The notes under the pieces are model-generated. The model did no database searches. It saw only the letters and a program-made list of their open reading frames with translations, and was not told where the DNA came from. A stretch of DNA of 64,000 nt from Aureimonas sp. AU4 (GTDB taxonomy: Bacteria > Pseudomonadota > Alphaproteobacteria > Rhizobiales > Rhizobiaceae), in NCBI RefSeq assembly GCF_001463765.1, contig NZ_BBWK01000017.1:62001-126000 (forward strand), given 5' to 3'. Every line of letters starts with the position of its first letter. Position 1 is the stretch's first letter. Position numbers and translations under genes: made by a program. Shown here in pieces: positions 5,803-20,042 of the stretch.

Positions 5803-7239
5803 ATGTTCGAAGGCTTCGACCCCGTGCTGCTCGCGCGCATCCAGTTCGCCTTCACGGTCTCGTTCCACTTCTTCTTTCCCGCCTTCACGATCGGCCTCGC
5901 CTCGTTCCTGGCTGTCCTGAACGGCCTGCATCTGGCGACCGGCCGGCAGGTCTACCGGACGCTGTTCCAGTACTGGGTCAAGATCTTCGCCGTGAGCTTC
6001 GCCATGGGCGTCGTGTCGGGCATCGTGATGAGCTACCAGTTCGGCACGAACTGGAGCGTCTTCTCGGACAGGACGGGTTCGATCCTCGGTCCGATGATGG
6101 CCTACGAGGTGCTATCGGCCTTCTTTCTCGAGGCCGGGTTCCTCGGCGTCATGCTGTTCGGGCTGAACCGCGTCGGCAAGGGCCTGCACATGTTCGCGAC
6201 CCTCATGGTGGCGCTCGGCACGCTCGGCTCGGCCTTCTGGATCCTGTCGGTGAACTCGTGGATGCACACGCCGGCCGGCTACGCGGTGGCGGCCAACGGG
6301 CAGTTCGTGCCGGAGGATTGGTGGGCCATCGTCTTCAACCCGTCCTTCCCCTACCGCCTCGCGCACACGGTGCTCGCGGCCTACCTGACGACCGCCTTCG
6401 TGGTGGGCGGGGTGGGCGCCTTCCACCTCCTGCGCGACCGGCACAACGCGGCCGCGCGCACCATGTTTTCGATGGCGCTCTGGATGGCGACCGTGGTCGC
6501 GCCCGCGCAGATCCTGATGGGCGACGCGCACGGGCTCAACACGCTGGAACACCAGCCCATGAAGGTCGCCGCCATGGAAGGGCACTTCGAGACGAACCGC
6601 GATGGCGGCATGCCGCTCACGCTCTTCGGCCTTCCCGACATGGAGGCGGGACGCATGCGGAACGCGGTCGCCATTCCGCAGCTCGGCTCCCTGATTCTCA
6701 CCCACTCGCTCACCGGCGAGGTCAGGGGCCTCGACCAGTTTCCCCGCGAGGACTGGCCCAACGTCTGGATCGTCTTCTTCACCTTCCGCATCATGGTCGG
6801 CATCGGCTTCGCCATGCTCGGGATCGGCCTGTGGGCGCTGTATCGCCGCGTCCGGGGCTCGATCTTCGAGGATCGCTGGCTGCAGCGCGCCGCCGTCGTC
6901 ATGGCGCCGAGCGGCTTCGCGGCGGTTCTGGCCGGCTGGATGACCACCGAGGTCGGGCGCCAGCCCTACACGGTCTACGGCCTCCTGCGCACGAGCGAGA
7001 GCCATTCGCCGATCGCGGCCTCGGCGGTCGGCACCTCGCTTCTCGCCTTCATCGCCGTGTACTTCGTCGTGTTCGGCGCGGGCGTCTACTACATCCTGCG
7101 CACCATGGGCAAAGCGCCGAGCGTCTTCGAAGCGGGGCCCGATCCGCTCCTGCCGATCCGCACCGCCGGCATCACGCCGGGGCCGGCGATGGACGTCGTG
7201 GACGGCACGGTGGCCGGCGCCGCGCGCGCCGAAGCCTGA
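5803..7239 (+). CDS. cydA: Cytochrome bd-type quinol oxidase subunit I
   Basis: This is a 478-residue polytopic subunit carrying the three haems of a bd-type terminal oxidase, which reduces oxygen with electrons from quinol. H22 in FTVSFHFFFP matches the axial haem ligand. RLAHTVLAA and FRIMVGIGF carry the His and Met ligand positions. The quinol loop begins at HQPMKVAAMEG and is short, about 80 residues, which suggests the cyanide-insensitive (CioA) short-loop subgroup. GWMTTEVGRQPY is the conserved GRQP segment. AAAGGA precedes the ATG. It leads an operon with cydB and a DUF2474 gene. The cydDC exporter is not nearby. Confidence 0.95.
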   Translation: MFEGFDPVLLARIQFAFTVSFHFFFPAFTIGLASFLAVLNGLHLATGRQVYRTLFQYWVKIFAVSFAMGVVSGIVMSYQFGTNWSVFSDRTGSILGPMMAYEVLSAFFLEAGFLGVMLFGLNRVGKGLHMFATLMVALGTLGSAFWILSVNSWMHTPAGYAVAANGQFVPEDWWAIVFNPSFPYRLAHTVLAAYLTTAFVVGGVGAFHLLRDRHNAAARTMFSMALWMATVVAPAQILMGDAHGLNTLEHQPMKVAAMEGHFETNRDGGMPLTLFGLPDMEAGRMRNAVAIPQLGSLILTHSLTGEVRGLDQFPREDWPNVWIVFFTFRIMVGIGFAMLGIGLWALYRRVRGSIFEDRWLQRAAVVMAPSGFAAVLAGWMTTEVGRQPYTVYGLLRTSESHSPIAASAVGTSLLAFIAVYFVVFGAGVYYILRTMGKAPSVFEAGPDPLLPIRTAGITPGPAMDVVDGTVAGAARAEA

Positions 7240-7251
7240 GAGGAGAGCATC

Positions 7252-8265
7252 ATGGATCTTCCCCTTCTCTGGGCCTTCATCCTCGCCTTCGCCGTCCTCG
7301 CCTATGTCGTGCTCGACGGCTTCGATCTGGGCATCGGGATCCTGTTCCCGTTCCTCAAGCGACACGAGAACCGCGACACGGCGATGAACACGGTCGCGCC
7401 CTTCTGGGACGGCAACGAGACCTGGCTGATCTTAGGGGGCGGCGGGCTCTTCGCGGTCTTCCCGCTCGCCTACGCGGTTCTCATGCCCGCGCTCTACGCG
7501 CCGATCATCGCGATGCTGCTGGCGCTGATCTTCCGGGGCGTCGCCTTCGAGTTCCGCTGGCGCACCGTGCGCTGGCGCGGCGTGTGGGACCTGTCCTTCT
7601 TCGCCGGCTCCCTGGTGGCGGCCTTCGCGCAAGGCGTGTCGCTCGGTGCGATCGTGCAGGGGATCGAGGTCTCGGGCCGCGCCTATGGCGGGGGCTGGTT
7701 CGACTGGGCGACCCCCTTCTCCATGATGACCGGGGTCGCCGTCGCGGTCGGCTACGCGCTTCTCGGCGCGACCTGGATCGTCATGAAGACCGAAGGACCG
7801 CTGAACCGCCTCGCCGCCCGCTACGCCCTCTTCCTGGGCGCGGGAACGGTTCTCGCCATCGCGGTGGTCTCGGCCTGGATGCCCTTCCTCCAGCCGAGCT
7901 TCTACTCGCGCTGGCTGACCTTCCCGCAGATCTTGGCGGTGGCGCCGATCCCTGCTCTCGTCGCGCTCTCGGCCTGGAGCCTCTGGAAGGGCCTGCGCAA
8001 TCCGATCTCGGGCCGGCGGCCCTTCCTGTCGGCGCTGGCGCTCTTCGCGCTGTCCTTCGCGGGCATCGGCATCTCGTTCTATCCGAACATCCTGCCGCCC
8101 GCGCTCACGATCTGGCAGGCCGCCGCGCCCGATTCCAGCCTCGTCTTCCTGCTGGTCGGCGCCTCGGTCCTGATCCCGCTGATCCTCGCCTACATGACCT
8201 ATTCCTACTGGGTGTTCCGGGGAAAGGTGATCGAGGGCGAGGGCTATCACACGCACGGCCACTGA
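7252..8265 (+). CDS. cydB: Cytochrome bd-type quinol oxidase subunit II
   Basis: This is the 337-residue second subunit of the bd oxidase, with eight or more membrane segments. Family motifs include the N-terminal VLDGFDLGIGILFPFLKRHENRD region, FWDGNETWL, and GVAFEFRWR near residue 100. It starts 12 bases after the cydA stop and follows AGGAGAG. It is required with CydA for a stable oxidase. The C-terminus ends in a short basic, histidine-rich tail (GYHTHGH), a minor feature that I cannot interpret. Confidence 0.95.
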   Translation: MDLPLLWAFILAFAVLAYVVLDGFDLGIGILFPFLKRHENRDTAMNTVAPFWDGNETWLILGGGGLFAVFPLAYAVLMPALYAPIIAMLLALIFRGVAFEFRWRTVRWRGVWDLSFFAGSLVAAFAQGVSLGAIVQGIEVSGRAYGGGWFDWATPFSMMTGVAVAVGYALLGATWIVMKTEGPLNRLAARYALFLGAGTVLAIAVVSAWMPFLQPSFYSRWLTFPQILAVAPIPALVALSAWSLWKGLRNPISGRRPFLSALALFALSFAGIGISFYPNILPPALTIWQAAAPDSSLVFLLVGASVLIPLILAYMTYSYWVFRGKVIEGEGYHTHGH

Positions 8266-8381: not shown

Positions 8382-9854
8382 TCAGAGCGCGATCTCGGGC
8401 ACGAAGGCCTTCACGCGGCCCATGTCCTCCTCGAACAGCGTCTGCTCGCGCGCCTGCGCCTCGGCGTCGGGCAGGCGCAGGATGTAGGCGGGGTGGACGG
8501 TGACGAGGAGCTTGGTGTCGCCGCCGGGCAGGTCGATCAGGCGCGAGCGCGTGTCGCGGATCGTCACCGTCTTGCCGATCACGGCGGCGGCGGCGGTCGC
8601 CCCGAGCGCCACGATAAGCTTGGGTCGGATCAGCTCGCGCTCCTGTTCCAGCCACCAGCGGCAGACCTTCACCTCGCTGACCGCCGGCGTCTTGTGGATG
8701 CGCCGCTTGCCGCGCGGCTCGAACTTGAAGTGCTTGACCGCGTTCGTGACGTAGGCCTGCGCCCGGTCGACGCCGGCCGCCTCCAGCGCCGCGTTGAACA
8801 CCTTGCCGGCGGGCCCGACGAAGGGGTGGCCGGCCAGATCCTCCTGGTCGCCCGGCTGCTCGCCGACGAAGATCACGGGCGCGTCCGGCGGCCCCTCGCC
8901 GAACACGGTCTGGGTGGCCGGCTCCCAGAGCGGGCACGCCTTGCAGTGACGCGCCTGCTCGCGCGCCTCCTCGATCGTGTCCGGAGCCTTGTTGAAGCCG
9001 TTGAAGGCGGGAACGGCTGCCGCTCGTGCCATGGTGTTGCGCTCCGATTGTTTCTCGGCACGCAAACTCGGCAGGGTCGGCGCGGTTTCGATCATGCGGC
9101 GCGAGGCCGCCTCGGCCCCTCGGATCAGGGGCTCGATCAGCGCGGCCTCGGGCAGGTTGTGCCAGTATTTCTTCGGCATCTCGGCCTGCATCGCCTTCAC
9201 CTTCAACCGGGCCGGGTTGAAGATCGAGGAATAGTAGGTGAGCCAGAGCGCCTCGGTGTCGTCGTCGGCCGGCTTCTGCGACGCGTCGGCACCCGGCGCG
9301 AAGACCATCTCCGCCCCGTCCCAGTGGACCGAACGCTTCGGCGTCAGGATGCTCCAGATCATGCCGGGAAAGCGCCGGAGGAAGAAGGGCGCGGTCAGCT
9401 CCACCACGTGGTGGAAGGGCTCGAACCAGGCGATGTAGTGGCGCTGCCCGTCGGTCGTTTCCACCTCGCGGAAGCGCACGAAGGCCTTCATCTTGTGGCT
9501 GTCGCGGCGCACCGCCTTTTCGAACTCGGCGGCGCGCGCGACATCCGCGTCGGACGCCACTTCCAGAAGCCCCTTCTCGCGCTGCAGGCGCCACAGGAGG
9601 CGGTAGGCGAGGCGGAAGCGCTCGGGGTCCGCATGGCAGACGACCTTGCGCGCCAGATCGGGAAAGGCGCGCGGGACGCTCAGGCCGGGCGCGCCGTCCG
9701 GCATCGCGCCCAGCGGCTCGGCAAAGAGCGGCCCGGCCTCGTCGCCGACGCAGAAGTCCATCTCGTCCGGCGAGACGCCCAGCGCCACGGCCCGGCGCGC
9801 GGCCTCGCGCCAGCCCTCGAAGTCCGCCGGATGGTCGAGGCGCGCGAGCTTCAT
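8382..9854 (-). CDS. DUF4130-UdgX fusion, uracil-DNA-binding protein
   Basis: This is a 490-residue two-part protein. Residues 1 to about 270 match the DUF4130 'DNA metabolism' domain, with AWFEPFHHVVELTAPFF near the centre. The rest is a family-4-like uracil-DNA glycosylase domain: GEQPGDQEDLAGHPFVGPAGK, then GKRRIHK, and TVHPAYILR near the end. KRRIH (residues 383-387) is the UdgX signature, whose histidine (H387 here) forms a covalent link to uracil-containing DNA in the studied mycobacterial enzyme. Its start lies three bases after the radical SAM stop, so the two genes are one unit. The role of DUF4130 is not established. Confidence 0.9.
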   Translation of the reverse strand: MKLARLDHPADFEGWREAARRAVALGVSPDEMDFCVGDEAGPLFAEPLGAMPDGAPGLSVPRAFPDLARKVVCHADPERFRLAYRLLWRLQREKGLLEVASDADVARAAEFEKAVRRDSHKMKAFVRFREVETTDGQRHYIAWFEPFHHVVELTAPFFLRRFPGMIWSILTPKRSVHWDGAEMVFAPGADASQKPADDDTEALWLTYYSSIFNPARLKVKAMQAEMPKKYWHNLPEAALIEPLIRGAEAASRRMIETAPTLPSLRAEKQSERNTMARAAAVPAFNGFNKAPDTIEEAREQARHCKACPLWEPATQTVFGEGPPDAPVIFVGEQPGDQEDLAGHPFVGPAGKVFNAALEAAGVDRAQAYVTNAVKHFKFEPRGKRRIHKTPAVSEVKVCRWWLEQERELIRPKLIVALGATAAAAVIGKTVTIRDTRSRLIDLPGGDTKLLVTVHPAYILRLPDAEAQAREQTLFEEDMGRVKAFVPEIAL

Positions 9855-9857
9855 GGC

Positions 9858-11096
9858 TCAGAACAGGCTCAGCTGCTGGGCGGGAGGCTTCCTGACCAGC
9901 GTCTCGCGCCCGTCGAGCCGGGCCGGCGTCCAGTCGATCGCCTCCACGAAGGGGCGCACCTTCTCGATCGAGCCGCACAGCCGCTTCACGTCGTCGAGGC
10001 GCAGGCTTCGATGGCGCCGCGTCGACAGGATGCGGTCCACCGACTTCGTGCCGAGGCCCGGCACGCGCAAGAGCATCTCGCGGTCGGCGCGGTTGACGTC
10101 GACCGGGAAGCGCCCCCGATTCTTGAGCGCCCAGGCGAGCTTGGGGTCGATGGCGAGATCCAGCATGCCGCCCTCCCCGCCCGACACGATCTCGTCGCGC
10201 TCGAAGCCGTAGAAGCGCATCAGCCAGTCGGCCTGGTAGAGCCGGTGCTCGCGCATCAGCGGAGGCTTGGCCAGCGGCAGGGCGGACGAGGAGTCGGGGA
10301 TCGGCGAAAAGGCGGAATAGTAGACGCGACGCAGGCGATAGTTGCCGTAGAGGTTCTCGGAGCGGCCGAGAATGTCGTCGTCGCTGGCGGCGTCCGCCCC
10401 GATGATCATCTGCGTCGACTGCCCGCCCGGCGCGAACTTCGGGGGCTTCACGCGGTCGCGCGCCTCGCCCTTGTGCTCGTCGATCTTGAGCCGGAGGTGC
10501 CCCATCGAGCGCTTGATGTCGCGGGGCTTCTTCTCGGGCGCGAGCCGCTCCAGCCCGATGTCGGTCGGCAGCTCGATGTTGATCGACAGGCGGTCGGCGA
10601 ACAGCCCCGCCTCCTCGATCAGCTTCGGCGACGCGTCGGGAATGGTCTTGAGGTGGATGTAGCCCGCGAAGTTCTCCTCCATGCGCAGCTTGCGCGCGAT
10701 GCGGACCATCTCCTCCATCGTGTAGTCCGAGGAGCGGATGATGCCGGACGAGAGGAACAGGCCCTCGATGTAGTTCCGCTTGTAGAACTCCATCGTCAGC
10801 TTCACGACCTCCTCCACCGAGAAGCGCGCGCGCTGAACGTTCGAGGACGAGCGGTTCACGCAGTAGACGCAGTCGTAGACGCAGAAGTTCGTCATCAGGA
10901 TCTTGAGGAGCGAGATGCAGCGCCCGTCCGGCGCATAGGCATGGCAGATCCCCGACCCTTCCGTGGATCCGATGCCGCCGGTCTTGGAGGAGTCGCGCTT
11001 GGCGGTTCCGCTGGAAGCGCAGGACGCGTCGTATTTCGCGGCGTCCGACAGGATGGCGAGCTTGGTCTTGAGCGTCATCTGGGCCATCCCGAACAT
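9858..11096 (-). CDS. Putative DNA modification/repair radical SAM protein
   Basis: This is a radical SAM protein of the family (rSAM_link_UDG) found beside UDG-like domains. The 4Fe-4S motif CVYDCVYC is CX3CX2C at residues 72-79. The C-terminus has a helix-hairpin-helix-like element, VPGLGTKSVDRIL, suggesting DNA contact. The family N-terminus KLAILSDAAKYDASCASSG is intact. I prefer the ATG at 11096, preceded by AAGGAAG, over the upstream ATG at 11123, which would add nine residues. It is the first gene of a two-gene unit with the DUF4130-UdgX fusion. The reaction and substrate are unknown. Confidence 0.88.
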   Translation of the reverse strand: MFGMAQMTLKTKLAILSDAAKYDASCASSGTAKRDSSKTGGIGSTEGSGICHAYAPDGRCISLLKILMTNFCVYDCVYCVNRSSSNVQRARFSVEEVVKLTMEFYKRNYIEGLFLSSGIIRSSDYTMEEMVRIARKLRMEENFAGYIHLKTIPDASPKLIEEAGLFADRLSINIELPTDIGLERLAPEKKPRDIKRSMGHLRLKIDEHKGEARDRVKPPKFAPGGQSTQMIIGADAASDDDILGRSENLYGNYRLRRVYYSAFSPIPDSSSALPLAKPPLMREHRLYQADWLMRFYGFERDEIVSGGEGGMLDLAIDPKLAWALKNRGRFPVDVNRADREMLLRVPGLGTKSVDRILSTRRHRSLRLDDVKRLCGSIEKVRPFVEAIDWTPARLDGRETLVRKPPAQQLSLF

Positions 11097-11322
11097 ATAG
11101 TGTTCTTCCTTCGTTCCGGCCATGCTCGACGATGGCTTATCCCAAGGAAATCGGCGGAAACGGCCGATCGGCGTTCAGCCTGGGTTCATGACCGTAAGGC
11201 GACCTTGCGATCAGTTTCCCGTGTTCGGGGAACCGGAGCGAATTTCCGTGCTTCCCGACCCGTGGGACGTTGTTCGCAGGGCGCGCAAAGCGCCTTGCAG
11301 GAGTTATGAGGATATCTTGCCG

Positions 11323-11748
11323 ATGCGTCGTTCGATCTCGTCGTTTCTTGCCGCCGCGCTGCTCGCCACGAGCGGCCTGACCGTCGCCTCCGCCCCGGCC
11401 GAGGCCCAGAGCTACCGCCAGCAGCAGCGTTTCGTGGAGCGCTTCTGCGCCCGCAATCCCGGCGCGCGCGACTGCCGCGAGTTCCGTCGCGACGCGCGCC
11501 GCTGGGACAACCGCCGCTACCAGCGCTGGTACCGCGACAACTACCGCCAGGACCGCCGCGACGCGACCACGGCGGCGATCTTCGGCCTTGCCGCCGGGGC
11601 GGCGCTGGGCGCGGCGGCGGCCAACAGCGGTGGCGGCTACAGTTCGAGCCAAGCCCAGCGCTGCGCCGCGCGCTACCGCACCTACGATCCGCGCACCAAC
11701 ACCTATGTCGCCAACAGCGCGGGCGAGCGCCGCATCTGCCGCCTCTGA
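11323..11748 (+). CDS. BA14K-family secreted protein, copy 1
   Basis: This is a 141-residue small exported protein. A signal peptide ends near residue 29 (ASAPAEAQS). It is followed by a basic, arginine- and tyrosine-rich region, a glycine-zipper-like hydrophobic stretch (GLAAGAALGAAAA, about residues 90-102), and a C-terminal BA14K-type motif, CAARYRTYDPRTNTYVA, ending RRICRL. BA14K is named for a Brucella immunoreactive protein; its molecular role is unclear. A second gene of the same design follows at 11918. Confidence 0.8.
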   Translation: MRRSISSFLAAALLATSGLTVASAPAEAQSYRQQQRFVERFCARNPGARDCREFRRDARRWDNRRYQRWYRDNYRQDRRDATTAAIFGLAAGAALGAAAANSGGGYSSSQAQRCAARYRTYDPRTNTYVANSAGERRICRL

Positions 11749-11787: not shown

Positions 11788-11917
11788 CGCCCTTGAAACC
11801 GAAGCGTTCAGCGCGCGTTCAGGTGCCGGATCATACGGGTTGAGGCGACCCCTCCAGGCTCCGCTTGTTCGGAGCGACCTCCAGGGACCGACCTCGAACG
11901 CTTCGGAGTGTTTCGCC

Positions 11918-12403
11918 ATGCGCATGCTTCTCGCAGGTTTGGCCGCCGTTCTCACCGTCACGGCCGGCGGCGCCACCGCCGCCAAGGCGGAGCCCTGGGG
12001 CTACGGCCCCGGCCCCTACTACGGCGGGGGATACGGAGGGGGCTATTATCGCCACCACGACCGCGGCTTCCGGGGCGGCGACGCGCTGGTGGGCGGCGCG
12101 ATCGGCCTCGCCGCCGGCGCGCTTCTAGGCTCGGCGCTCTCGCAGCCCCGCCCCGCGCCCGCCTATGTCGATCCCTACTACGGCCGCCCGGTCTACGCGG
12201 CGCCCGCCTACCGCGCGCCCGCGCCCGTCTATGTCGAGCCGCCGGCCTACGAGGACAGCTATCCCGCGCCCCGCACGGTCCGCTACTACAACCGCGCACC
12301 GAGCGGCCACGTCGAGCGCTGCCTCGCGCGCTACCGCTCCTACGACCCGCGCTCCGACACGTTCGTGGGCTACGACGGCTACGCGCGCCGCTGCAATCTC
12401 TGA
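11918..12403 (+). CDS. BA14K-family secreted protein, copy 2
   Basis: This 161-residue protein is built like its neighbour: a signal peptide to about residue 25 (TAAKAEP), a Gly/Tyr-rich segment, a glycine-zipper hydrophobic stretch (GGAIGLAAGALLG), a Pro/Tyr-rich linker, and a C-terminal BA14K motif, CLARYRSYDPRSDTFVGYDG, ending RRCNL. The ATG was chosen because GGAG lies upstream and the signal peptide begins there. It is probably cell-envelope associated. The shared C-terminal block with the gene at 11323 suggests tandem duplication followed by divergence of the middle region. Confidence 0.8.
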   Translation: MRMLLAGLAAVLTVTAGGATAAKAEPWGYGPGPYYGGGYGGGYYRHHDRGFRGGDALVGGAIGLAAGALLGSALSQPRPAPAYVDPYYGRPVYAAPAYRAPAPVYVEPPAYEDSYPAPRTVRYYNRAPSGHVERCLARYRSYDPRSDTFVGYDGYARRCNL

Positions 12404-12651: not shown

Positions 12652-14682
12652 ATGCGAGCGGTTCCGCCGCGCATCCGGACATCGGGTGGGAAAGCGTTCG
12701 CGTTGGCACAGACCCTGACGGCATCCTGGCTGCGCACGACCTGCGCCGCCCTCCTGCTGGCTTCGGCCGTGACACCGGTGGGCGCGCAGGCACCGACGCG
12801 CCCCGCCGCCTCGCCGCTCCGCTTCCTCGATCCGTTCAACCTCTTCACCTCGCCCGAAGCCGAGGATCCGGGCATTCCCGATCCCGTGCGCTACGAGGCG
12901 ACGCTCACCGTCATGCCGGACGAGAGCGGGCTGCAGAAGACGCTGGAGCGAGCCTCCTCGCTGATCGCCGACGAGAAGGAGCCCGTTTCGGGCTCGCTCG
13001 GGCTCCTGGCCAAGGCGCGCACCGATCGCCGCCGCATCGTGGCGGCCCTCTACGAGAACGCGCGCTACGACGGGCTCGTGACGATCCGGGTGGACGGGCG
13101 CGACATCGCGACCCTCGAGCCGGACGCGACCTTCGACACCTCGCGCACCGTGCCGGTCGAGATCACGGTGGATCCCGGCCCCCTGTTCACGATCGGAACC
13201 GTCACGGTCGAGGCCGACGACCGGGGCCCGATCGACACCGCCCCCTACGAGCTGACGCCGGGCTCGAACGCGGGATCGGTGCGCATCCTCGCCGCCGAGG
13301 GACGAATCCTCACCGACCTTCGCGACCAGGGCCGCCCGTTCGTGGCGCTGACGCGGCGCGAGGTGGTGGCCGATTCCGCCACGCGCCGGATCGACGTGGC
13401 GCTCCGCATCTCGCCGGGCGGCGTCGTGCCCTTCGGCCAGACCTATGTCGAGGGCACGAGCCGGATGAATCCGGGCTTCGTCGCCTACATGGCGGGCATC
13501 CAGCCGGGCGAGACCTATTCGGTCGCCGCGATCGAAAAGGCGCGCAAGCGCCTCGTCGGCCTCAACGTCTTCTCCACCGCCAACGTCAAGGCGAGCGATG
13601 CGCAGGCAGACGACGGGACGCTCCCGGTCCAGGTCGTGGTGGCCGAGCGCAAGCGCTTCGTGTTCGGCGCGGGCGCGACCTTCTCCAACACGGAAGGCGC
13701 CGGCGCCAACGCCTACTGGGAGGACCGCAACGTCTTCGGCCGCGCCGAGTCGCTGCGCATCGAGGGCAAGGTCGCGCGCATCGGCGCCGAGACGCTGTCC
13801 GACAACTCCCGTCCGCTGGACGGCTTCGACTATTCGGCGAGCGCGACCTTCCGCAAGCCGGGCGTGCTCGGGCCCGACTCGGTCTATGTCGGATCGCTGA
13901 TCGGCCTGCGCGAGCAGCCGCTCGCCTACGACCGCACCTCGGTCGCCCTGACAAACGGCGTCGAGTACCAGATCGACGACCGGCAGAAGGCGACGCTCGG
14001 CATCCGCGCCGAATACGAGACGGTGCGCGACTATTTCGGCGAGAACGAGTTCCTGATCGCCTCCGTGCCCGGCACCTACACCTATGACGGTCGCGACAAC
14101 GAGCTGAACCCGACGCGCGGCTTCCTCGCCAAGCTCTCCGCCGAGCCCTCCTACGAGATCGAGAACGGCACCTTCTTCGCCAAGGCTCGCGGCGACGTCT
14201 CGGCCTACCTGTCGTTCGACGACGAGGGCCGGTTCGTGGCCGCCGGACGCGTTGGCTACGGCGCGATCGTGGGGGCGGACCTCGCCGAAATCCCGAACGA
14301 CCGGCGCTTCTATGCCGGCGGCGGCGGCTCGATGCGCGGCTACGCCTTCCAGTCGATCGGTCCCTACACGCCCCCGATCGCCTTTCCCGGCACCAACCCG
14401 AACTTCGTCGACACGCCGATCGGCGGGCTGTCGGTCTTCGAGGCCTCGGCGGAGCTGCGCTTCCGCATCACGGAAAACATCCAGATCGTGCCCTTCGTGG
14501 ACGGGGGAACGGTCGGCACCGACCTCGCCCCCGACTTCGGCGAGTTCAAGCTGGGGGCCGGCGTCGGCGCCCGCTACATCACGAGCTTCGGCCCGATCCG
14601 CGTCGACGTCGCCCTGCCGCTCGATCCCGGCCCGCGCGACTCCTCGTTCCAGATCTACGCCGGTATCGGGCAGGCCTTCTGA
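12652..14682 (+). CDS. tamA: TamA-type outer membrane assembly protein (BamA/Omp85 family)
   Basis: This is a 676-residue Omp85-family protein that works with TamB in the insertion and assembly of outer-membrane proteins or in envelope homeostasis. A hydrophobic export signal lies at about residues 26-46 (TTCAALLLASAVTPVGAQA). POTRA-like domains fill the first half. The C-terminal barrel has GGGGSMRGYAFQSIGP, matching the family's R-G-[FY] segment, and ends in phenylalanine (AGIGQAF), the usual barrel signal. The start is uncertain: the ATG at 12652 gives a long N-region, and a TTG near 12703 is an alternative. Its stop codon overlaps the tamB start (TGATG). Confidence 0.88.
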   Translation: MRAVPPRIRTSGGKAFALAQTLTASWLRTTCAALLLASAVTPVGAQAPTRPAASPLRFLDPFNLFTSPEAEDPGIPDPVRYEATLTVMPDESGLQKTLERASSLIADEKEPVSGSLGLLAKARTDRRRIVAALYENARYDGLVTIRVDGRDIATLEPDATFDTSRTVPVEITVDPGPLFTIGTVTVEADDRGPIDTAPYELTPGSNAGSVRILAAEGRILTDLRDQGRPFVALTRREVVADSATRRIDVALRISPGGVVPFGQTYVEGTSRMNPGFVAYMAGIQPGETYSVAAIEKARKRLVGLNVFSTANVKASDAQADDGTLPVQVVVAERKRFVFGAGATFSNTEGAGANAYWEDRNVFGRAESLRIEGKVARIGAETLSDNSRPLDGFDYSASATFRKPGVLGPDSVYVGSLIGLREQPLAYDRTSVALTNGVEYQIDDRQKATLGIRAEYETVRDYFGENEFLIASVPGTYTYDGRDNELNPTRGFLAKLSAEPSYEIENGTFFAKARGDVSAYLSFDDEGRFVAAGRVGYGAIVGADLAEIPNDRRFYAGGGGSMRGYAFQSIGPYTPPIAFPGTNPNFVDTPIGGLSVFEASAELRFRITENIQIVPFVDGGTVGTDLAPDFGEFKLGAGVGARYITSFGPIRVDVALPLDPGPRDSSFQIYAGIGQAF

Positions 14683-17600
14683 TGCGGTTTCCCCACGCCC
14701 TCCTCGCCGTCGTCGCGCTCGCCCTCGCCTGGCTCGCCCCGGTCGCCCCGGCGAAGGCGCAGTTCCTCGCCGGCCAGCTCGAGAACCTCCTGTCGACGCC
14801 CGACCGCACGGTGCGCGTTCAGGGTCTCAGCGGTGTCCTCAGCGGGAACCTGCGCATCCAGGAGGTGACCGTCGCCGACCGAGACGGCGTGTGGCTGACG
14901 GCGCGCGACCTCGCGCTCGACTGGTCGCCGCTCGCGCTCGTGCGCAAGAACGTCTCGGTCGAGAACCTCACCGCCGGCCAGATCACGCTCGCGCGCCTGC
15001 CGCTGGCGGGCCAGACCCCGGCCGAGTCCTCCGAGGGCGGCTTCTCGCTTCCCTCGATCACGGCCGACATCCGCAACATCCAGGTGAACGAGTTCGCGCT
15101 CGGCGAAGCGGTGGCGGGCGTGAGCGCCCGGCTTGCCGCGCAGGGGTCGCTGCGCCTGTCCGCCGACCCGGCGGTTCTCGACGCGAATCTGGCGATCCGT
15201 CGCCTCGACCAGCCGGGCGAGGTGAACCTCAAGCTCGGCTTCGAGCCGGCGAACAACCGGCTCGAGATCGCGATGAACGCCAGCGAGCCGGCCGGCGGCC
15301 TCGTGGCGGGGCTCCTGAAAATCCCTGGCGCGCCGCCGGTGGCGCTTTCGATCCAGGGCAACGGCCCGCTCGACGCCTTTTCGGCGAACGGCACGCTGGA
15401 TCTTGGCTCCGAGCGCGCGGCCACCCTTCAGGCCTCGACGCAGAACGGCGGCGACGGCCGGCGCGTCCAGGCCGACCTCACGGCCCTGACGGCTCCCTTC
15501 GTGCCGGAAGCCTATCTCGGCACGGTGGGCCGCGATCTGCGCCTGCAGGCGAACGTCCTGCTGCGCCCCGACGGCGCGATCGCCATCGACACCGGACGTC
15601 TCGTGTCCGGCAATCTCGACCTGACGGCGCAAGGGGTCCTCGACCGCTCGGGCTCCGCCAACGACCTGACGGTGGCGCTGCGCACCGACGAGGGCAATCC
15701 GATCCCGATCGTTCTCGGCGAGGCGGGCGCACGCACCGCGATCGACCTGTCGCGCCTCGATGCGCGGCTGCAGGGCGCCTTCTCGGCCGCGGCCGTCGAG
15801 CTCTCGGCCGCCGCCCGCTCGGCGGGCTATGCCGACTACGCCGTGAACGAGCTCACGGCCTCGGCGAGCTCCACGGCCTTCGACCTGAACAACATCGCCG
15901 GCCCCCTCCAGCTTCAGGCCGACGCGCGCAGCGCCAGCGTTCCCGCCGGCATCGCGACGCGCGTCCTCCAGGGGCCGATCAGCCTGCGCGGCCAGGGCGC
16001 GCTGACGGCGGACGGGATCGGCCTCGACAGCGCCAGCCTCAAGACCGCCGTGGCCGAGCTGTCGCTGGCCGGGCAGGCGGCGCTGAACGTCTCGACCTTC
16101 GCGCTCGACATCCAGAGCCGCTTCCAGACCGAGGCGCTGGCCGCGGACGCCGTTCCCTATGTGGGTCCGAGCGTCGCGATCGCGGGACGCGCCTCGCGCG
16201 CGGCCGACGGCTCGTTCGCGCTCTCCGACTTCAGGGTCGACGGCGACGCGCTGGACCTGTCCGGGACCGCGAGCCTCACCGGCGAGACCATCGCCGCCGC
16301 CGTGTCGGGCCGCCTCAACCAGGCGGTGGTGGCGGGTAGCGGGCTCGACGGCGAGGCGGAGTTCAAGCTCGACGCCTCCGGCACGACCGCCGCCCCCGCG
16401 ATCGACCTCACAGCGACCGCCGCGCGCCTCGATGTGGCGGGCCGTCGCCTCGAGAACCTCGACGCCCGCATCCAGGGCACCTTCCCGCTCGACGCGCCCG
16501 CCGGCACGGTGGCGGTGAACGGCACCTATGACGGCGCGCCGCTCCGGCTAGCCGCAACGCTCGCGACCGAGGGCGGCGTGCGACGGCTGACCGACCTCGT
16601 CCTGCGCCAGAACCGCAACCGGGTCGAGGGCTCGGTCGCGCTCGACGACGAGAACCGCGCCACCGGCCAGCTGCGCCTCGACCTGCCCGACGCAGCCCCC
16701 CTTCTGGCGCTCGCCGGCCAGACCGGCGCGGGCACGCTCAACGGGACCGTGAACCTTGCGGTCGGCTCGAACGGAACGCCGACGGCGGACCTCGACCTCG
16801 CGGCCCCCACCGTCACGCTGAACGGAAACAGCCTTACTGAGGCCCGCATCCGACTGCGCGCGACCGACTATCTCCAGCGCCCGCAGGTTTCGGGAACGGT
16901 CCGCGCAGCCGAGATCGAGGCGGGGTCGCTCACCGTGTCGCGCCTCGACGCCGCGCTGGAGGCGATCAATCGGGCGACCGCCGTCAACGCCTCGCTCCGG
17001 CTCAACGGCGTGCCGACCGAGCTGTCGGGCGACGTCGCCTTCACCGATGCCGGGACCGTGGTCGAGCTTCGGCGCCTCGCCGCCCAGGTGCCGAACGCCC
17101 CGCTCTCGCTGGCCGAGCCCGCCACGGTCACGCTCGGCTCGGTTCGCACCACGATCAGTCGCGTTCTCCTGAACGCCGGCTCGGGCTCGCTCGAACTCTC
17201 GGGCTCGGCCGGCGACACGCTCGACCTCGACCTTTCGCTGAACCGGCTGCCGGTCGCGCTCGCCAATCCCTTCGTCGCCGATCTCGACGCGTCGGGAACC
17301 TTGACCGGCACCGCCGCCCTCAAGGGCTCGGCCTCCTCGCCCGACGTCGATTTCTCGCTCCGGGCGGCGGACGTCGAGACCCGCCAGACGCGGCAGGCCC
17401 GCCTCGCCCCGGTGGAGGCGAACCTTCAGGGACGCCTGCGCGACGGTACCGCGACACTGGATGCCGCGCGCGTGTCGCTGGGGTCGGGCACGATCGACGC
17501 GAGCGGCACGGTCGGCGAGACGCTCGACCTCGATCTGGCGCTCACCAACCTGCCGGTCGCGCTCGCCAACGGCTTCCGCGAGGGCCTGGGCGCCTCGGGC

Positions 17601-20042
17601 CGCATCGACGGCACGGCCACGGCGACCGGCTCGATCGCCAACCCCGCCGTCCGCTTCGACCTGACCGGCGCCGACATCACCGCCACCGATGTCGCGCGGG
17701 CCGGCGTGCCGCCGCTTCGGGTCGAGATCGCGGGCCTTTATCGCGGCTCGACGGTTCGCCTCGACCGCGCGCTCGCGACCGTCGGCTCGGGCCGGATCGA
17801 GGCGACCGGCAGCATCGGGCGCGATCTCGACCTCGACCTCACGATCGCCGAGCTTCCCGCCGCGCTCGCCAACGGTTTTGTCCAGGGCCTCGATGCGCGC
17901 GGCACGATCTCCGGCAGCGCGAAGGCGACCGGCTCGATCGCCGATCCGACCGGCCGCTTCGAGCTCGCGAGCCGTGGCCTTTCGGCAGCCCCGCTGCGAC
18001 GGGCCGGTATCGAGGAGGTTCGCCTCGATCTCGCCGGCACGATCGCCGACAGCGCCGTGCGCTTCGAGCGCGGCACGGTACAGGTGGGCGACGGCTCGCT
18101 GCAGCTGTCGGGCACACTCGGCCGAACGCTCGACCTGCGCCTCGCGCTCGACCGCCTGCCGCTCGCGATCGCGGACGCGGTACGCCCCGACCTCGGCGCG
18201 CGCGGCACGCTGTCCGGCGAGGCCTCGGCCACGGGCACGCTCAGCAATCCGAGCGCGCGCTTCGACGTCACGGCGCGCGGCGTCTCGGTGGCGCAGGGGC
18301 GGCAGGCCGGTGCGCCGCCGATCGATGCGGTCGCACGCGGCTCCTATTCGGGCGGCACGCTGCAGCTCGAAACCGCGCAGCTGGATCTCGGTTCGGGCCG
18401 CGTCACGGCGTCGGGTTCGGTCGGGCAACGCCTCGATCTCAACGCCGATATCCGGGGCGTACCGGTGTCGCTCGCCGCCGCCGTGGTGCCCGATCTCGCG
18501 CCCACCGGGACGCTCGACGGAACGGTTCGCGCCACCGGCTCGGTTTCGGCGCCGGCCGTCGACTACGACCTGCGCGTGGCGAGCCTCAGCCTCCAGCCGA
18601 CGCGTGAGGCCGGCGTCGGGCCGCTCGACGTCGCGGCGCGCGGCACCTATTCGGGCACCCGCGTCACGGTGGACGGGACGCTCAGCGGCGATGGCCTGCA
18701 GTTCTCGGCCAACGGCTCGGTCGGGCTTGCGGGAACGCCGAGCTTCGACCTCGCCCTCAACGGCACCGCACCGCTCGCGCTCGCCAACCGGACGCTGGCC
18801 ACGGGCGGCCGTTCGGTGAGCGGCGTGGTCCGGGTCGACGCGCGCGTCACCGGAACGGCGGCGGCGCCCAACGTGACCGGCACGGTCACGACAAGCGGCG
18901 CCACCTTCAACGATACGGGCGCCAACGTCTCGCTGGAGAACATCCAGGCCAACATCGCGCTGAACGGCCAGTCGGCGACGATTCAGAGCCTGACCGCCAA
19001 CGTGCGCTCGGGCGGAACGGTGCGCGTGTCGGGCACGGTGGGCTTCGGGAACGGCTTCCCGGCCGACCTCACCATCAACGGCGATCAGGTGCGCTACGCC
19101 GACGGCGAGTTCGCGACGGTGCGCCTCGACGCTTCGCTGCGCCTCACGGGACCGCTGACGGGCGATGCCCTCCTGTCGGGCACCGTGAACACGAGCGAGA
19201 TCAACATCCAGGTTCCCGAGAACCTGCCGACCTCGCTGGCCCAGATCGACCTCAAGCGGCGCAACACGCCACCCGCCGTCCTCAGGCAGCTGCGCGAGAT
19301 CAACCCCGACAGCGGGTCCGGCGGCACGGGCGGCTCGGGCGGCATCCGCCTCGACGTCACCGTGAACGCGCCCAACCGCGTCTTCGTGCGCGGCCGGGGC
19401 CTCGACCTCGAGCTCGGCGGCACGATCCGCGTCCAGGGCCCCGTCTCGGGTCTCGGCGTCAGCGGCGGCTTCGAGCTCCAGCGCGGGCGCTTCCAGCTCC
19501 TGTCGCGCCGGCTCGACTTCAGCCGCGCGACGCTGACCTTCAACGGCGACCTCGTGCCGACGCTCGACCTCCTCGCCTCGTCGGATACGGGCGACGGGGT
19601 GACCGTCAACGTCGCGATCACGGGTCCCGCCAACGCGCCGAGCTTCTCCTTCACCTCCACCCCTGCCCTGCCGCAGGACGAGGTGCTGGCGCGGCTCGTC
19701 TTCGGACAGGGCACGGCCAACCTGTCGCCGCTCCAGATCGCGCAGCTGGCCTCGGCCGCCGCACAGCTCGCCGGCGTCGGCGGCTCGACGGGCCTTCTCG
19801 ACAACCTGCGCTCGCAGCTCGGCGTCGACGACATCGACATCCGCACGACCGCCGACGGCCAGGCGGCGGTGGGCGTCGGGCGCTACCTCAACGACAATAC
19901 CTATGTCGGCGTCGACTCCACGGGCCGCGTCTCGATCGACCTCGAGCTCGGCGCCGACATCAAGGCACGCGCCGCCGTGGGCGCGAACGGCGGCGAGGTC
20001 GGCGTCTTCTACGAGCGCGAATACGGCGACCCGAAGCCCTGA
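14682..20042 (+). CDS. tamB: TamB, translocation and assembly module inner-membrane protein
   Basis: This 1786-residue AsmA-like protein is anchored by an N-terminal hydrophobic segment (LLAVVALALAWLAPVAPAKA, within residues 1-27). A very long beta-rich periplasmic region follows, and the conserved TamB (DUF490) C-terminal domain occupies roughly the last 400 residues, ending YLNDNTYVGVD and FYEREYGDPKP. It pairs with TamA across the periplasm, and members of this superfamily are thought to move phospholipid. The start overlaps the tamA stop. A run of near-100-residue repeats with the core LPVALAN occupies the middle; this is annotated separately. Confidence 0.92.
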   Translation: MRFPHALLAVVALALAWLAPVAPAKAQFLAGQLENLLSTPDRTVRVQGLSGVLSGNLRIQEVTVADRDGVWLTARDLALDWSPLALVRKNVSVENLTAGQITLARLPLAGQTPAESSEGGFSLPSITADIRNIQVNEFALGEAVAGVSARLAAQGSLRLSADPAVLDANLAIRRLDQPGEVNLKLGFEPANNRLEIAMNASEPAGGLVAGLLKIPGAPPVALSIQGNGPLDAFSANGTLDLGSERAATLQASTQNGGDGRRVQADLTALTAPFVPEAYLGTVGRDLRLQANVLLRPDGAIAIDTGRLVSGNLDLTAQGVLDRSGSANDLTVALRTDEGNPIPIVLGEAGARTAIDLSRLDARLQGAFSAAAVELSAAARSAGYADYAVNELTASASSTAFDLNNIAGPLQLQADARSASVPAGIATRVLQGPISLRGQGALTADGIGLDSASLKTAVAELSLAGQAALNVSTFALDIQSRFQTEALAADAVPYVGPSVAIAGRASRAADGSFALSDFRVDGDALDLSGTASLTGETIAAAVSGRLNQAVVAGSGLDGEAEFKLDASGTTAAPAIDLTATAARLDVAGRRLENLDARIQGTFPLDAPAGTVAVNGTYDGAPLRLAATLATEGGVRRLTDLVLRQNRNRVEGSVALDDENRATGQLRLDLPDAAPLLALAGQTGAGTLNGTVNLAVGSNGTPTADLDLAAPTVTLNGNSLTEARIRLRATDYLQRPQVSGTVRAAEIEAGSLTVSRLDAALEAINRATAVNASLRLNGVPTELSGDVAFTDAGTVVELRRLAAQVPNAPLSLAEPATVTLGSVRTTISRVLLNAGSGSLELSGSAGDTLDLDLSLNRLPVALANPFVADLDASGTLTGTAALKGSASSPDVDFSLRAADVETRQTRQARLAPVEANLQGRLRDGTATLDAARVSLGSGTIDASGTVGETLDLDLALTNLPVALANGFREGLGASGRIDGTATATGSIANPAVRFDLTGADITATDVARAGVPPLRVEIAGLYRGSTVRLDRALATVGSGRIEATGSIGRDLDLDLTIAELPAALANGFVQGLDARGTISGSAKATGSIADPTGRFELASRGLSAAPLRRAGIEEVRLDLAGTIADSAVRFERGTVQVGDGSLQLSGTLGRTLDLRLALDRLPLAIADAVRPDLGARGTLSGEASATGTLSNPSARFDVTARGVSVAQGRQAGAPPIDAVARGSYSGGTLQLETAQLDLGSGRVTASGSVGQRLDLNADIRGVPVSLAAAVVPDLAPTGTLDGTVRATGSVSAPAVDYDLRVASLSLQPTREAGVGPLDVAARGTYSGTRVTVDGTLSGDGLQFSANGSVGLAGTPSFDLALNGTAPLALANRTLATGGRSVSGVVRVDARVTGTAAAPNVTGTVTTSGATFNDTGANVSLENIQANIALNGQSATIQSLTANVRSGGTVRVSGTVGFGNGFPADLTINGDQVRYADGEFATVRLDASLRLTGPLTGDALLSGTVNTSEINIQVPENLPTSLAQIDLKRRNTPPAVLRQLREINPDSGSGGTGGSGGIRLDVTVNAPNRVFVRGRGLDLELGGTIRVQGPVSGLGVSGGFELQRGRFQLLSRRLDFSRATLTFNGDLVPTLDLLASSDTGDGVTVNVAITGPANAPSFSFTSTPALPQDEVLARLVFGQGTANLSPLQIAQLASAAAQLAGVGGSTGLLDNLRSQLGVDDIDIRTTADGQAAVGVGRYLNDNTYVGVDSTGRVSIDLELGADIKARAAVGANGGEVGVFYEREYGDPKP
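17230..18800 (+). repeat. About 300-bp tandem repeats within tamB
   Basis: The protein motif LPVALAN, or close variants (LPAALAN, LPLAIAD, VPVSLAA, APLALAN), recurs near 17247, 17549, 17850, 18153, 18456 and 18770. The period is close to 300 bases, or about 100 residues. Each unit reads roughly LDLDL..LP.ALAN..., then G.L.G.A.ATGS...P..RF, then GSG.I.ASG. These are diverged internal duplications that lengthen the TamB beta-groove. Confidence 0.8.

Follow-up and report, generated by a model that had tools for sequence, protein, structure and literature searches.

A radical SAM protein and its DUF4130 partner in Aureimonas sp. AU4: LexA-type boxes, a predicted clamp-binding tail, and a probable UdgX add-on

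The window analyzed here is a 64,000-nucleotide stretch of Aureimonas sp. AU4 (contig NZ_BBWK01000017.1, positions 62,001 to 126,000). Its minus strand carries an open reading frame (ORF) for a radical S-adenosylmethionine (SAM) protein, followed after three bases by an ORF for a protein in which DUF4130 is fused to the uracil-DNA glycosylase UdgX, a layout that an earlier note had described and that both ORFs confirm. This operon very probably has a role in the response to DNA damage. With moderate confidence, we read it as encoding an SOS-induced, clamp-tethered radical enzyme that acts together with DUF4130 on damaged DNA. The regulation, tethering, and partnership in this reading are supported by sequence, while its substrate and chemistry are conjectural. 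The operon scores over the cut-offs of all three models TIGR03914, TIGR03915, and TIGR03916. It is an ordinary member of a catalogued, uncharacterized family, and we saw nothing structural that distinguishes the window's copy from the rest.

Upstream of the radical SAM gene lies GAACGAAGGAAGAAC, which in reverse orientation is the alphaproteobacterial LexA box GTTC-N7-GTTC (PMC9578287, Table 1). Scored with a matrix built from 89 boxes of the family, it ranks first in the window; the overlapping palindromic site GAACATATAGTGTTC ranks second, and the third-best site reaches 8.1 bits. The earlier note had let the gene extend to 11096, but in an alignment made by eye the ATG at this position sits between the box and the start-codon position of the relatives. 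Because the boxes and ATGs of five near relatives (L032–L035 and L039; four Aurantimonas and one Fulvimarina) line up with 11102–11116 and 11087, respectively, the start is most likely 11087, and residues are numbered from there. We then inspected 110 loci anchored at the motif DAA(K/R)YD, with the window's own locus counted and L002 omitted. A LexA-type box occurs within 200 nt upstream of the anchor in 100 of them, versus 0.43% of 19,850 control windows, and three of the ten others (L021, L024, and L030) have CTGT-N8-ACAG instead. LexA presumably represses the operon. SOS control of such operons has been reported in Bacteroidetes, with Verrucomicrobia and Alphaproteobacteria cited (PMC8565304), and was inferred for the family operon of C. 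acetobutylicum (PMC3828012). One family gene is listed among those that an Acinetobacter upregulates when desiccated (PMC13130816), and one is listed as upregulated in co-culture (PMC9848294).

The radical SAM protein ends in PPAQQLSLF. The clamp-binding consensus is QL(S/D)LF, with pentamer and hexamer forms (review PMC11139829), and B. subtilis PolC has QLSLF as its clamp motif (PMC12309361). In the last 18 residues of 110 homologs, strict patterns find the pentamer in 97 and the hexamer in 8, making 105 in total. The hexamers are QLGFGF, QLSLAL, and QMALAL; the pattern for them admits F at position 4, is broader in this respect than the review's [L/M], and captures four QLGFGF tails. A first, slightly different tail pattern had matched 104 of the 110 loci. 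The five loci outside the strict patterns have QGSLF (L019), QMALW (L030), QPRLL (L074), QFELF (L103), or a frameshift (L106). Among 43,153 other residues, the pentamer pattern occurs six times. Across 109 aligned tails, conservation is 99% at the first Gln, 48% at position 3, and 94% at position 4, a position-wise profile that resembles that of known clamp ligands. The complete distant homologs end in QLKLF (L114, Fusobacterium), QLSLF (L115, Subdoligranulum), QLSLW (L116, Gemmatirosa), QLSFF (L117, a faecal record labelled as phage), and QLSLGF (L118, Acinetobacter). QLSLW and QLSFF narrowly miss the strict pattern, and the tails of these distant proteins otherwise differ. Residues 395–409 of the window's protein have a pLDDT under 50 and are modelled as disordered; Q-aliphatic-x-[L/M]-[F/L], the mark of a β-clamp ligand, is thereby placed in a flexible extreme C terminus. 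The protein is likely to bind the β clamp through this tail. In the open-licence literature we found no paper tying the TIGR03916 family to the clamp, and PMC10434189 deals with other genes.

The partnership with DUF4130 was assessed in a sample of 199 genomes of the phylum by counting matches over cut-off. The family is widespread, with 38 genomes having the radical SAM protein, 40 having DUF4130, and 37 having UdgX. DUF4130 is present in every one of the 38 radical SAM genomes. Caulobacter vibrioides, the species of the laboratory strain Caulobacter crescentus NA1000, matches TIGR03916 and exceeds the cut-off of TIGR03915. It was also called in 111 of 117 loci; among the others, L018 has one 3 kb off, and L078, L097, L112, and L113 end close downstream. 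DUF4130 is, with high probability, an obligate partner of the radical SAM protein.

The whole radical SAM protein scores 572.1 bits against TIGR03916 (rSAM_link_UDG; curated cut-off 343.5) and 40 bits against Pfam Radical_SAM (cut-off 29.5). The earlier note had recognized in it a CX3CX2C motif and a helix-hairpin-helix (HhH)-like tail. The former, C69/C73/C76, is invariant in alignment A1 (28 sequences) and in 109 of 109 aligned homologs (the frameshifted L106 is omitted), and together with the core fold it places the protein in the radical SAM superfamily. The latter matches HHH_3 at 20.2 bits, under the Pfam cut-off of 27, and the same domain exceeds that cut-off in the divergent Gemmatirosa homolog with 30.9 bits. 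Three further cysteines, C23, C48, and C57, are also present in 109 of 109 homologs and possibly form a second metal site. In the Gemmatirosa homolog (L116, 4800–6095), which has the HhH domain and the QLSLW tail, neither this triad nor an adjacent DUF4130 was found, and it possibly represents a second subfamily. Because both are missing there, the triad may be tied to DUF4130, a suggestion drawn from this one case.

Among the best 50 rows of a fold search, the predicted model (pLDDT 80) is best matched by HydE and lipoyl synthase (Z 17.6), with biotin synthase next at Z 16.6. A comparative-genomics suggestion of 2013 takes the protein for a thymine photolyase like spore photoproduct lyase (SplB), with DUF4130 modifying thymines. 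Both proteins belong to the CX3CX2C superfamily, and SOS control has been reported for both. However, a search of NCBIfam at E values up to 0.1 yielded weak hits, HydE, ThiH, MqnE, and MoaA among them, and no model named as a spore lyase. The best fold matches also lie with the enzymes listed above, and the three extra invariant cysteines and the obligate partner are not known features of SplB. Spore photoproduct lyase is not among the best 50 rows, a list that by itself excludes nothing. We consider this explanation unlikely.

The fusion protein scores 136.7 bits against the Pfam family of DUF4130 (cut-off 27), 217.5 bits against TIGR03915 (cut-off 112.25), and 329.3 bits against TIGR03914/UdgX (cut-off 189.95), in line with the domain assignment of the earlier note. 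Its predicted model has a pLDDT of 93 and a pTM of 0.59. When this full-length model was used for a structure search, the top hits, insofar as they carry names, were uracil-DNA-glycosylase and polymerase records. For the DUF4130 fold, two matches to solved structures (E 1.7 and 1.9) were taken as chance. The DUF4130 residues invariant across alignment A2 (56 rows) include His120, Arg127, Glu145, Arg161, Trp167, Arg216, Trp231, and Glu236. In the more diverse alignment A3 (16 rows), His120, Trp204, Trp231, and Glu236 are conserved to at least 90%. Because Arg127, Arg161, and Arg216 stay invariant in A3 and Glu145 is not kept, we favor a putative basic, DNA-binding-like surface over Glu145 as a catalyst. 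The UdgX half contains GEQPG, KRRIH, and HPAYILR. UdgX is defined by motif A (GEQPG), an R-loop His with a role in cross-linking, and motif B (HP..xxxR), and covalent uracil-DNA activity is reported for the B. diazoefficiens UdgX (PMC10359453). The R-loop His, which the earlier note had singled out, is retained in all 45 UdgX-bearing rows of A2, and motif A is GEQPG in 43 of these and GEAPG in two. Three candidate cysteine ligands of a 4Fe-4S cluster were identified, Cys304, Cys307, and Cys398, each kept in 42 of the 45 rows.

The same note had tied the radical SAM enzyme to a covalent uracil binder and had named genome-wide co-occurrence as a check. The check upheld the pairing of the radical SAM protein with DUF4130 and that with UdgX only in part, UdgX over cut-off being found in 28 of 38 radical SAM genomes versus 9 of 161 others; the tie to UdgX does not hold as such. 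Accordingly weighed here is the idea that the radical SAM protein serves UdgX, either by freeing or processing the covalent UdgX–DNA adduct or by making the base that UdgX removes. This would fit the above co-occurrence, the invariance of the cross-linking His, and the fact that 93 of 111 loci carry UdgX as a fusion with DUF4130 (two of the remaining 18 are truncated at the locus end). It is distinctly improbable given that ten of the 38 radical SAM genomes lack UdgX over cut-off, that seven genomes have UdgX with neither the radical SAM protein nor DUF4130 over cut-off, and that at the loci of the Fusobacterium, Subdoligranulum, faecal, and Acinetobacter homologs (L114, L115, L117, and L118) DUF4130 has no UdgX fused to it within the locus.

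Five of these seven UdgX genomes were fetched. In L119, L122, and L123, only the last part of DUF4130 is left ahead of UdgX, and in the UdgX genomes L124 and L128 DUF4130 was not found. Two genomes of the sample, L120 and L121, have DUF4130 without the radical SAM protein, and the L120 domain is missing both the PKKYW region and an Arg that is invariant elsewhere. Hence, in four genomes without the radical SAM protein, DUF4130 is damaged or a remnant and UdgX is retained. We infer that the L119–L123 series represents losses rather than late gains. From this series, DUF4130 therefore seems to depend on the radical SAM protein and UdgX does not, suggesting that DUF4130 is of little use without the enzyme and that UdgX is useful alone. 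Judged by sequence, the core of the system is the radical SAM protein plus DUF4130, and UdgX is an add-on. UdgX genes stand free in L119–L124 and L128, three of them preceded by DUF4130 remnants, which suggests that in some cases a UdgX protein standing alone arose from the fusion when the radical SAM protein and DUF4130 were lost.

We also inspected the neighborhood of the operon for translesion genes. ImuB and/or dnaE2 genes occur in 14 of 117 loci, the flanks of L003–L031 being too short to reveal most such neighbors, and the identity of ImuB and DnaE2 was confirmed on samples by Pfam and NCBIfam. Nine loci (eight of Sphingomonadales, and L097) have co-directional neighbors, with imuB upstream and/or dnaE2 downstream. 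A divergent imuB is found in Henriciella, in Bradyrhizobium (L110), and in three further genomes with the same tail. By coordinates, six of the 38 genomes, from two lineages, have dnaE2 no more than 3 kb away from the radical SAM gene, with G035, G111, and G149 belonging to one genus and G087, G128, and G146 to one family. Clustering of the flanking ORFs in the 80 genome_contigs loci gave, beyond the radical SAM protein and DUF4130, clusters of at most nine loci, including imuB and dnaE2; the largest third cluster consists of antisense ORFs and was disregarded. The genome of the window has two imuB/dnaE2 pairs, both on other contigs. It is very unlikely that the enzyme modifies a protein (DUF4130 or a replisome protein) or tRNA and is merely localized by the clamp motif: its fold is as similar to radical enzymes acting on small molecules or proteins as to those acting on nucleic acids, but the HhH domain, LexA-type boxes, clamp motif, and imu/dnaE2 linkage indicate DNA. 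Action on DNA, as the earlier note had supposed, is probable.

Several observations weigh against an SOS-induced, clamp-tethered enzyme working with DUF4130. The bare box pattern occurs at 128 sites in the genome versus 65 for a reversed control, and the plain pattern has three sites in the window versus 1.5 expected. Because the pattern is this frequent, the window's box is weak alone and draws its strength from conservation across loci. The AT-rich core seen in the family consensus is also missing from the window's direct-repeat box, and neither box type is present in seven of the 110 loci (L003, L019, L044, L075, L090, L094, and L099). As for the tail, a short motif alone is no proof of clamp binding. 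In L121, DUF4130 is intact and a box is present, with no similarity to the radical SAM protein at E 0.01. Because 80 of the 110 loci stem from one scan, their proteins being 63–84% identical and nearly all alphaproteobacterial, locus counts are not independent events. DnaE2 is present in 32 of 38 genomes with the radical SAM protein versus 51 of 161 others; inside the class the figures are 26 of 27 versus 28 of 36 (p = 0.07), and because of this weakness the co-occurrence is mostly a matter of lineage. Finally, the loop of residues 24–47, which separates C23 from C48, has a pLDDT under 50.

On the preferred reading, LexA repression would be lifted after damage and the radical SAM enzyme would be made. 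Its disordered QLSLF tail would dock it on the β sliding clamp, and its HhH domain would hold DNA. In the simplest version, DUF4130 would present or recognize the substrate, or perform a second step. The 5'-deoxyadenosyl radical would alter a base that carries a lesion, located at a stalled fork or behind it, and reversal or conversion of the lesion would let the clamp-bound translesion machinery go on. That the chemistry is a direct reversal or conversion of a lesion is a tentative proposal. UdgX would be an accessory, excising uracil and capping the resulting abasic site covalently, an activity known elsewhere and for which the residues are present here. A doubtful extension makes the clamp-travelling enzyme a third component of the ImuB/DnaE2 mutasome, in which it rewrites damaged template bases with DUF4130, C23/C48/C57 form a second Fe-S site that goes with DUF4130, UdgX caps abasic sites, and a hemerythrin protects the enzyme from O2 in one lineage. 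To our knowledge, spore photoproduct lyase is the only radical SAM enzyme known for direct DNA repair. If the proposal is true, it would no longer be the sole one.

The hemerythrin gene lies between the radical SAM and DUF4130 genes in L016, L088, L096, L104, and L125, and directly after the radical SAM gene in L112, whose record ends soon afterwards (128 loci searched). Two of the genes were tested and match Pfam Hemerythrin with 51.8 and 67 bits. A natural guess is that the product is an oxygen- or iron-handling helper for the iron-sulfur enzyme. Gaps also occur in L034, L035, L039, and L090, outside the six hemerythrin loci.

A viral or mobile origin was considered and rejected: a single-protein scan of viral_contigs gave no relatives, and a profile scan gave two loci. 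Ten records of a phage collection match, and the one inspected, 240 kb long, looks bacterial, with glyQS and aidB nearby. There are 158 plasmid records with a match, many of them large replicons. No PADLOC match to a defence system was found at E values up to 0.01, and a distant DNA search gave no match in E. coli.

The operon is adjoined convergently by cydA and cydB, encoding a cytochrome bd oxidase (5803–8265, plus strand). Upstream and divergent are genes for two small proteins that look secreted and resemble each other at the C terminus (11323–11748 and 11908–12403, plus strand); the first matches BA14K (39.2 bits), and the second has no Pfam match at E 0.001. They are followed by a gene for an Omp85-family protein (12652–14682, plus strand), with a barrel match over the cut-off and one POTRA match at it. 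The 1786-residue ORF after it (14682–20042) may be TamB-like, a guess from the arrangement. The features of the operon are collected in Table 1.

Table 1. Features of the operon in the window, and hemerythrin genes in the coordinates of their own loci
Feature	Position	Strand	Basis
LexA-type (SOS) box GAACGAAGGAAGAAC	11102..11116	-	Pattern and family matrix, 15.3 bits, top in the 64-kb window
Overlapping palindromic GAAC-N7-GTTC site GAACATATAGTGTTC	11091..11105	+	Matrix, 12.95 bits, ranked second in the window
Radical SAM protein, TIGR03916, 409 residues from the likely start	9858..11087	-	Profile match; start set by comparison with Aurantimonas loci
Further invariant cysteines C23 (11019-11021), C48 (10944-10946), C57 (10917-10919)	10917..11021	-	Alignment
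CX3CX2C, radical SAM [4Fe-4S] motif, C69/C73/C76	10860..10883	-	Conservation in alignment
Helix-hairpin-helix, ComEA-like HHH_3 match	10014..10103	-	Pfam, below cut-off here
C-terminal QLSLF, predicted β-clamp-binding motif	9861..9875	-	Consensus match, conserved in homologs
DUF4130-UdgX fusion protein, 490 residues	8382..9854	-	Profile matches
DUF4130 domain, Pfam PF13566 match	9147..9626	-	Pfam; TIGR03915 spans residues 8-237
UdgX domain, TIGR03914 match	8418..9140	-	NCBIfam
UdgX R-loop KRRIH; cross-linking His is residue 387 (8694-8696)	8694..8708	-	Motif conservation
Hemerythrin (HHE) genes	L088 8277-8765; L096 8318-8767; L104 8503-8934; L016 1374-937; L125 2714-2235; L112 7312-7743		

Earlier publications cover the families, the way they pair, and SOS control elsewhere, and the earlier note was right to call the pairing known yet poorly described. 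It mentions neither the clamp-binding tail nor the LexA-type box, which are the two most telling features. In the open-licence literature, we found no biochemical function for the family. PMC9611098 and PMC8307549 list no more than its annotation, and the match of the papers' COG numbers to the TIGR models rests on annotation. So far the label has been 'putative DNA modification/repair', with no function. While the pairing and the SOS link are known, the open-licence literature found does not describe the clamp-binding tail or the order of loss. The conserved tail and DUF4130 as an invariant partner make the function directly testable.

Three known systems can be compared with the operon. The UdgX of M. 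smegmatis resembles the window's UdgX in GEQPG, KRRIH, and HPAYILR, and phmmer finds the solved UdgX chains at E 2.5e-49; motif B is given as HPS(S/A).., and the window has Ala in place of Ser. It differs in that the window's UdgX is fused to DUF4130 and lies beside a radical SAM gene. The ImuA–ImuB–DnaE2 mutasome is likewise SOS-controlled, neighbors the radical SAM genes in several lineages, and is linked to the clamp by ImuB (PMC9578287), whereas the window's operon has no polymerase domain and has a radical enzyme. SplB is a radical SAM enzyme acting on DNA (PMC8307549), and the window's protein would share this action. Unlike SplB, however, it has extra invariant cysteines, a DUF4130 partner, an HhH domain, and a clamp motif, and no match to a spore lyase model was seen for it at E values up to 0.1.

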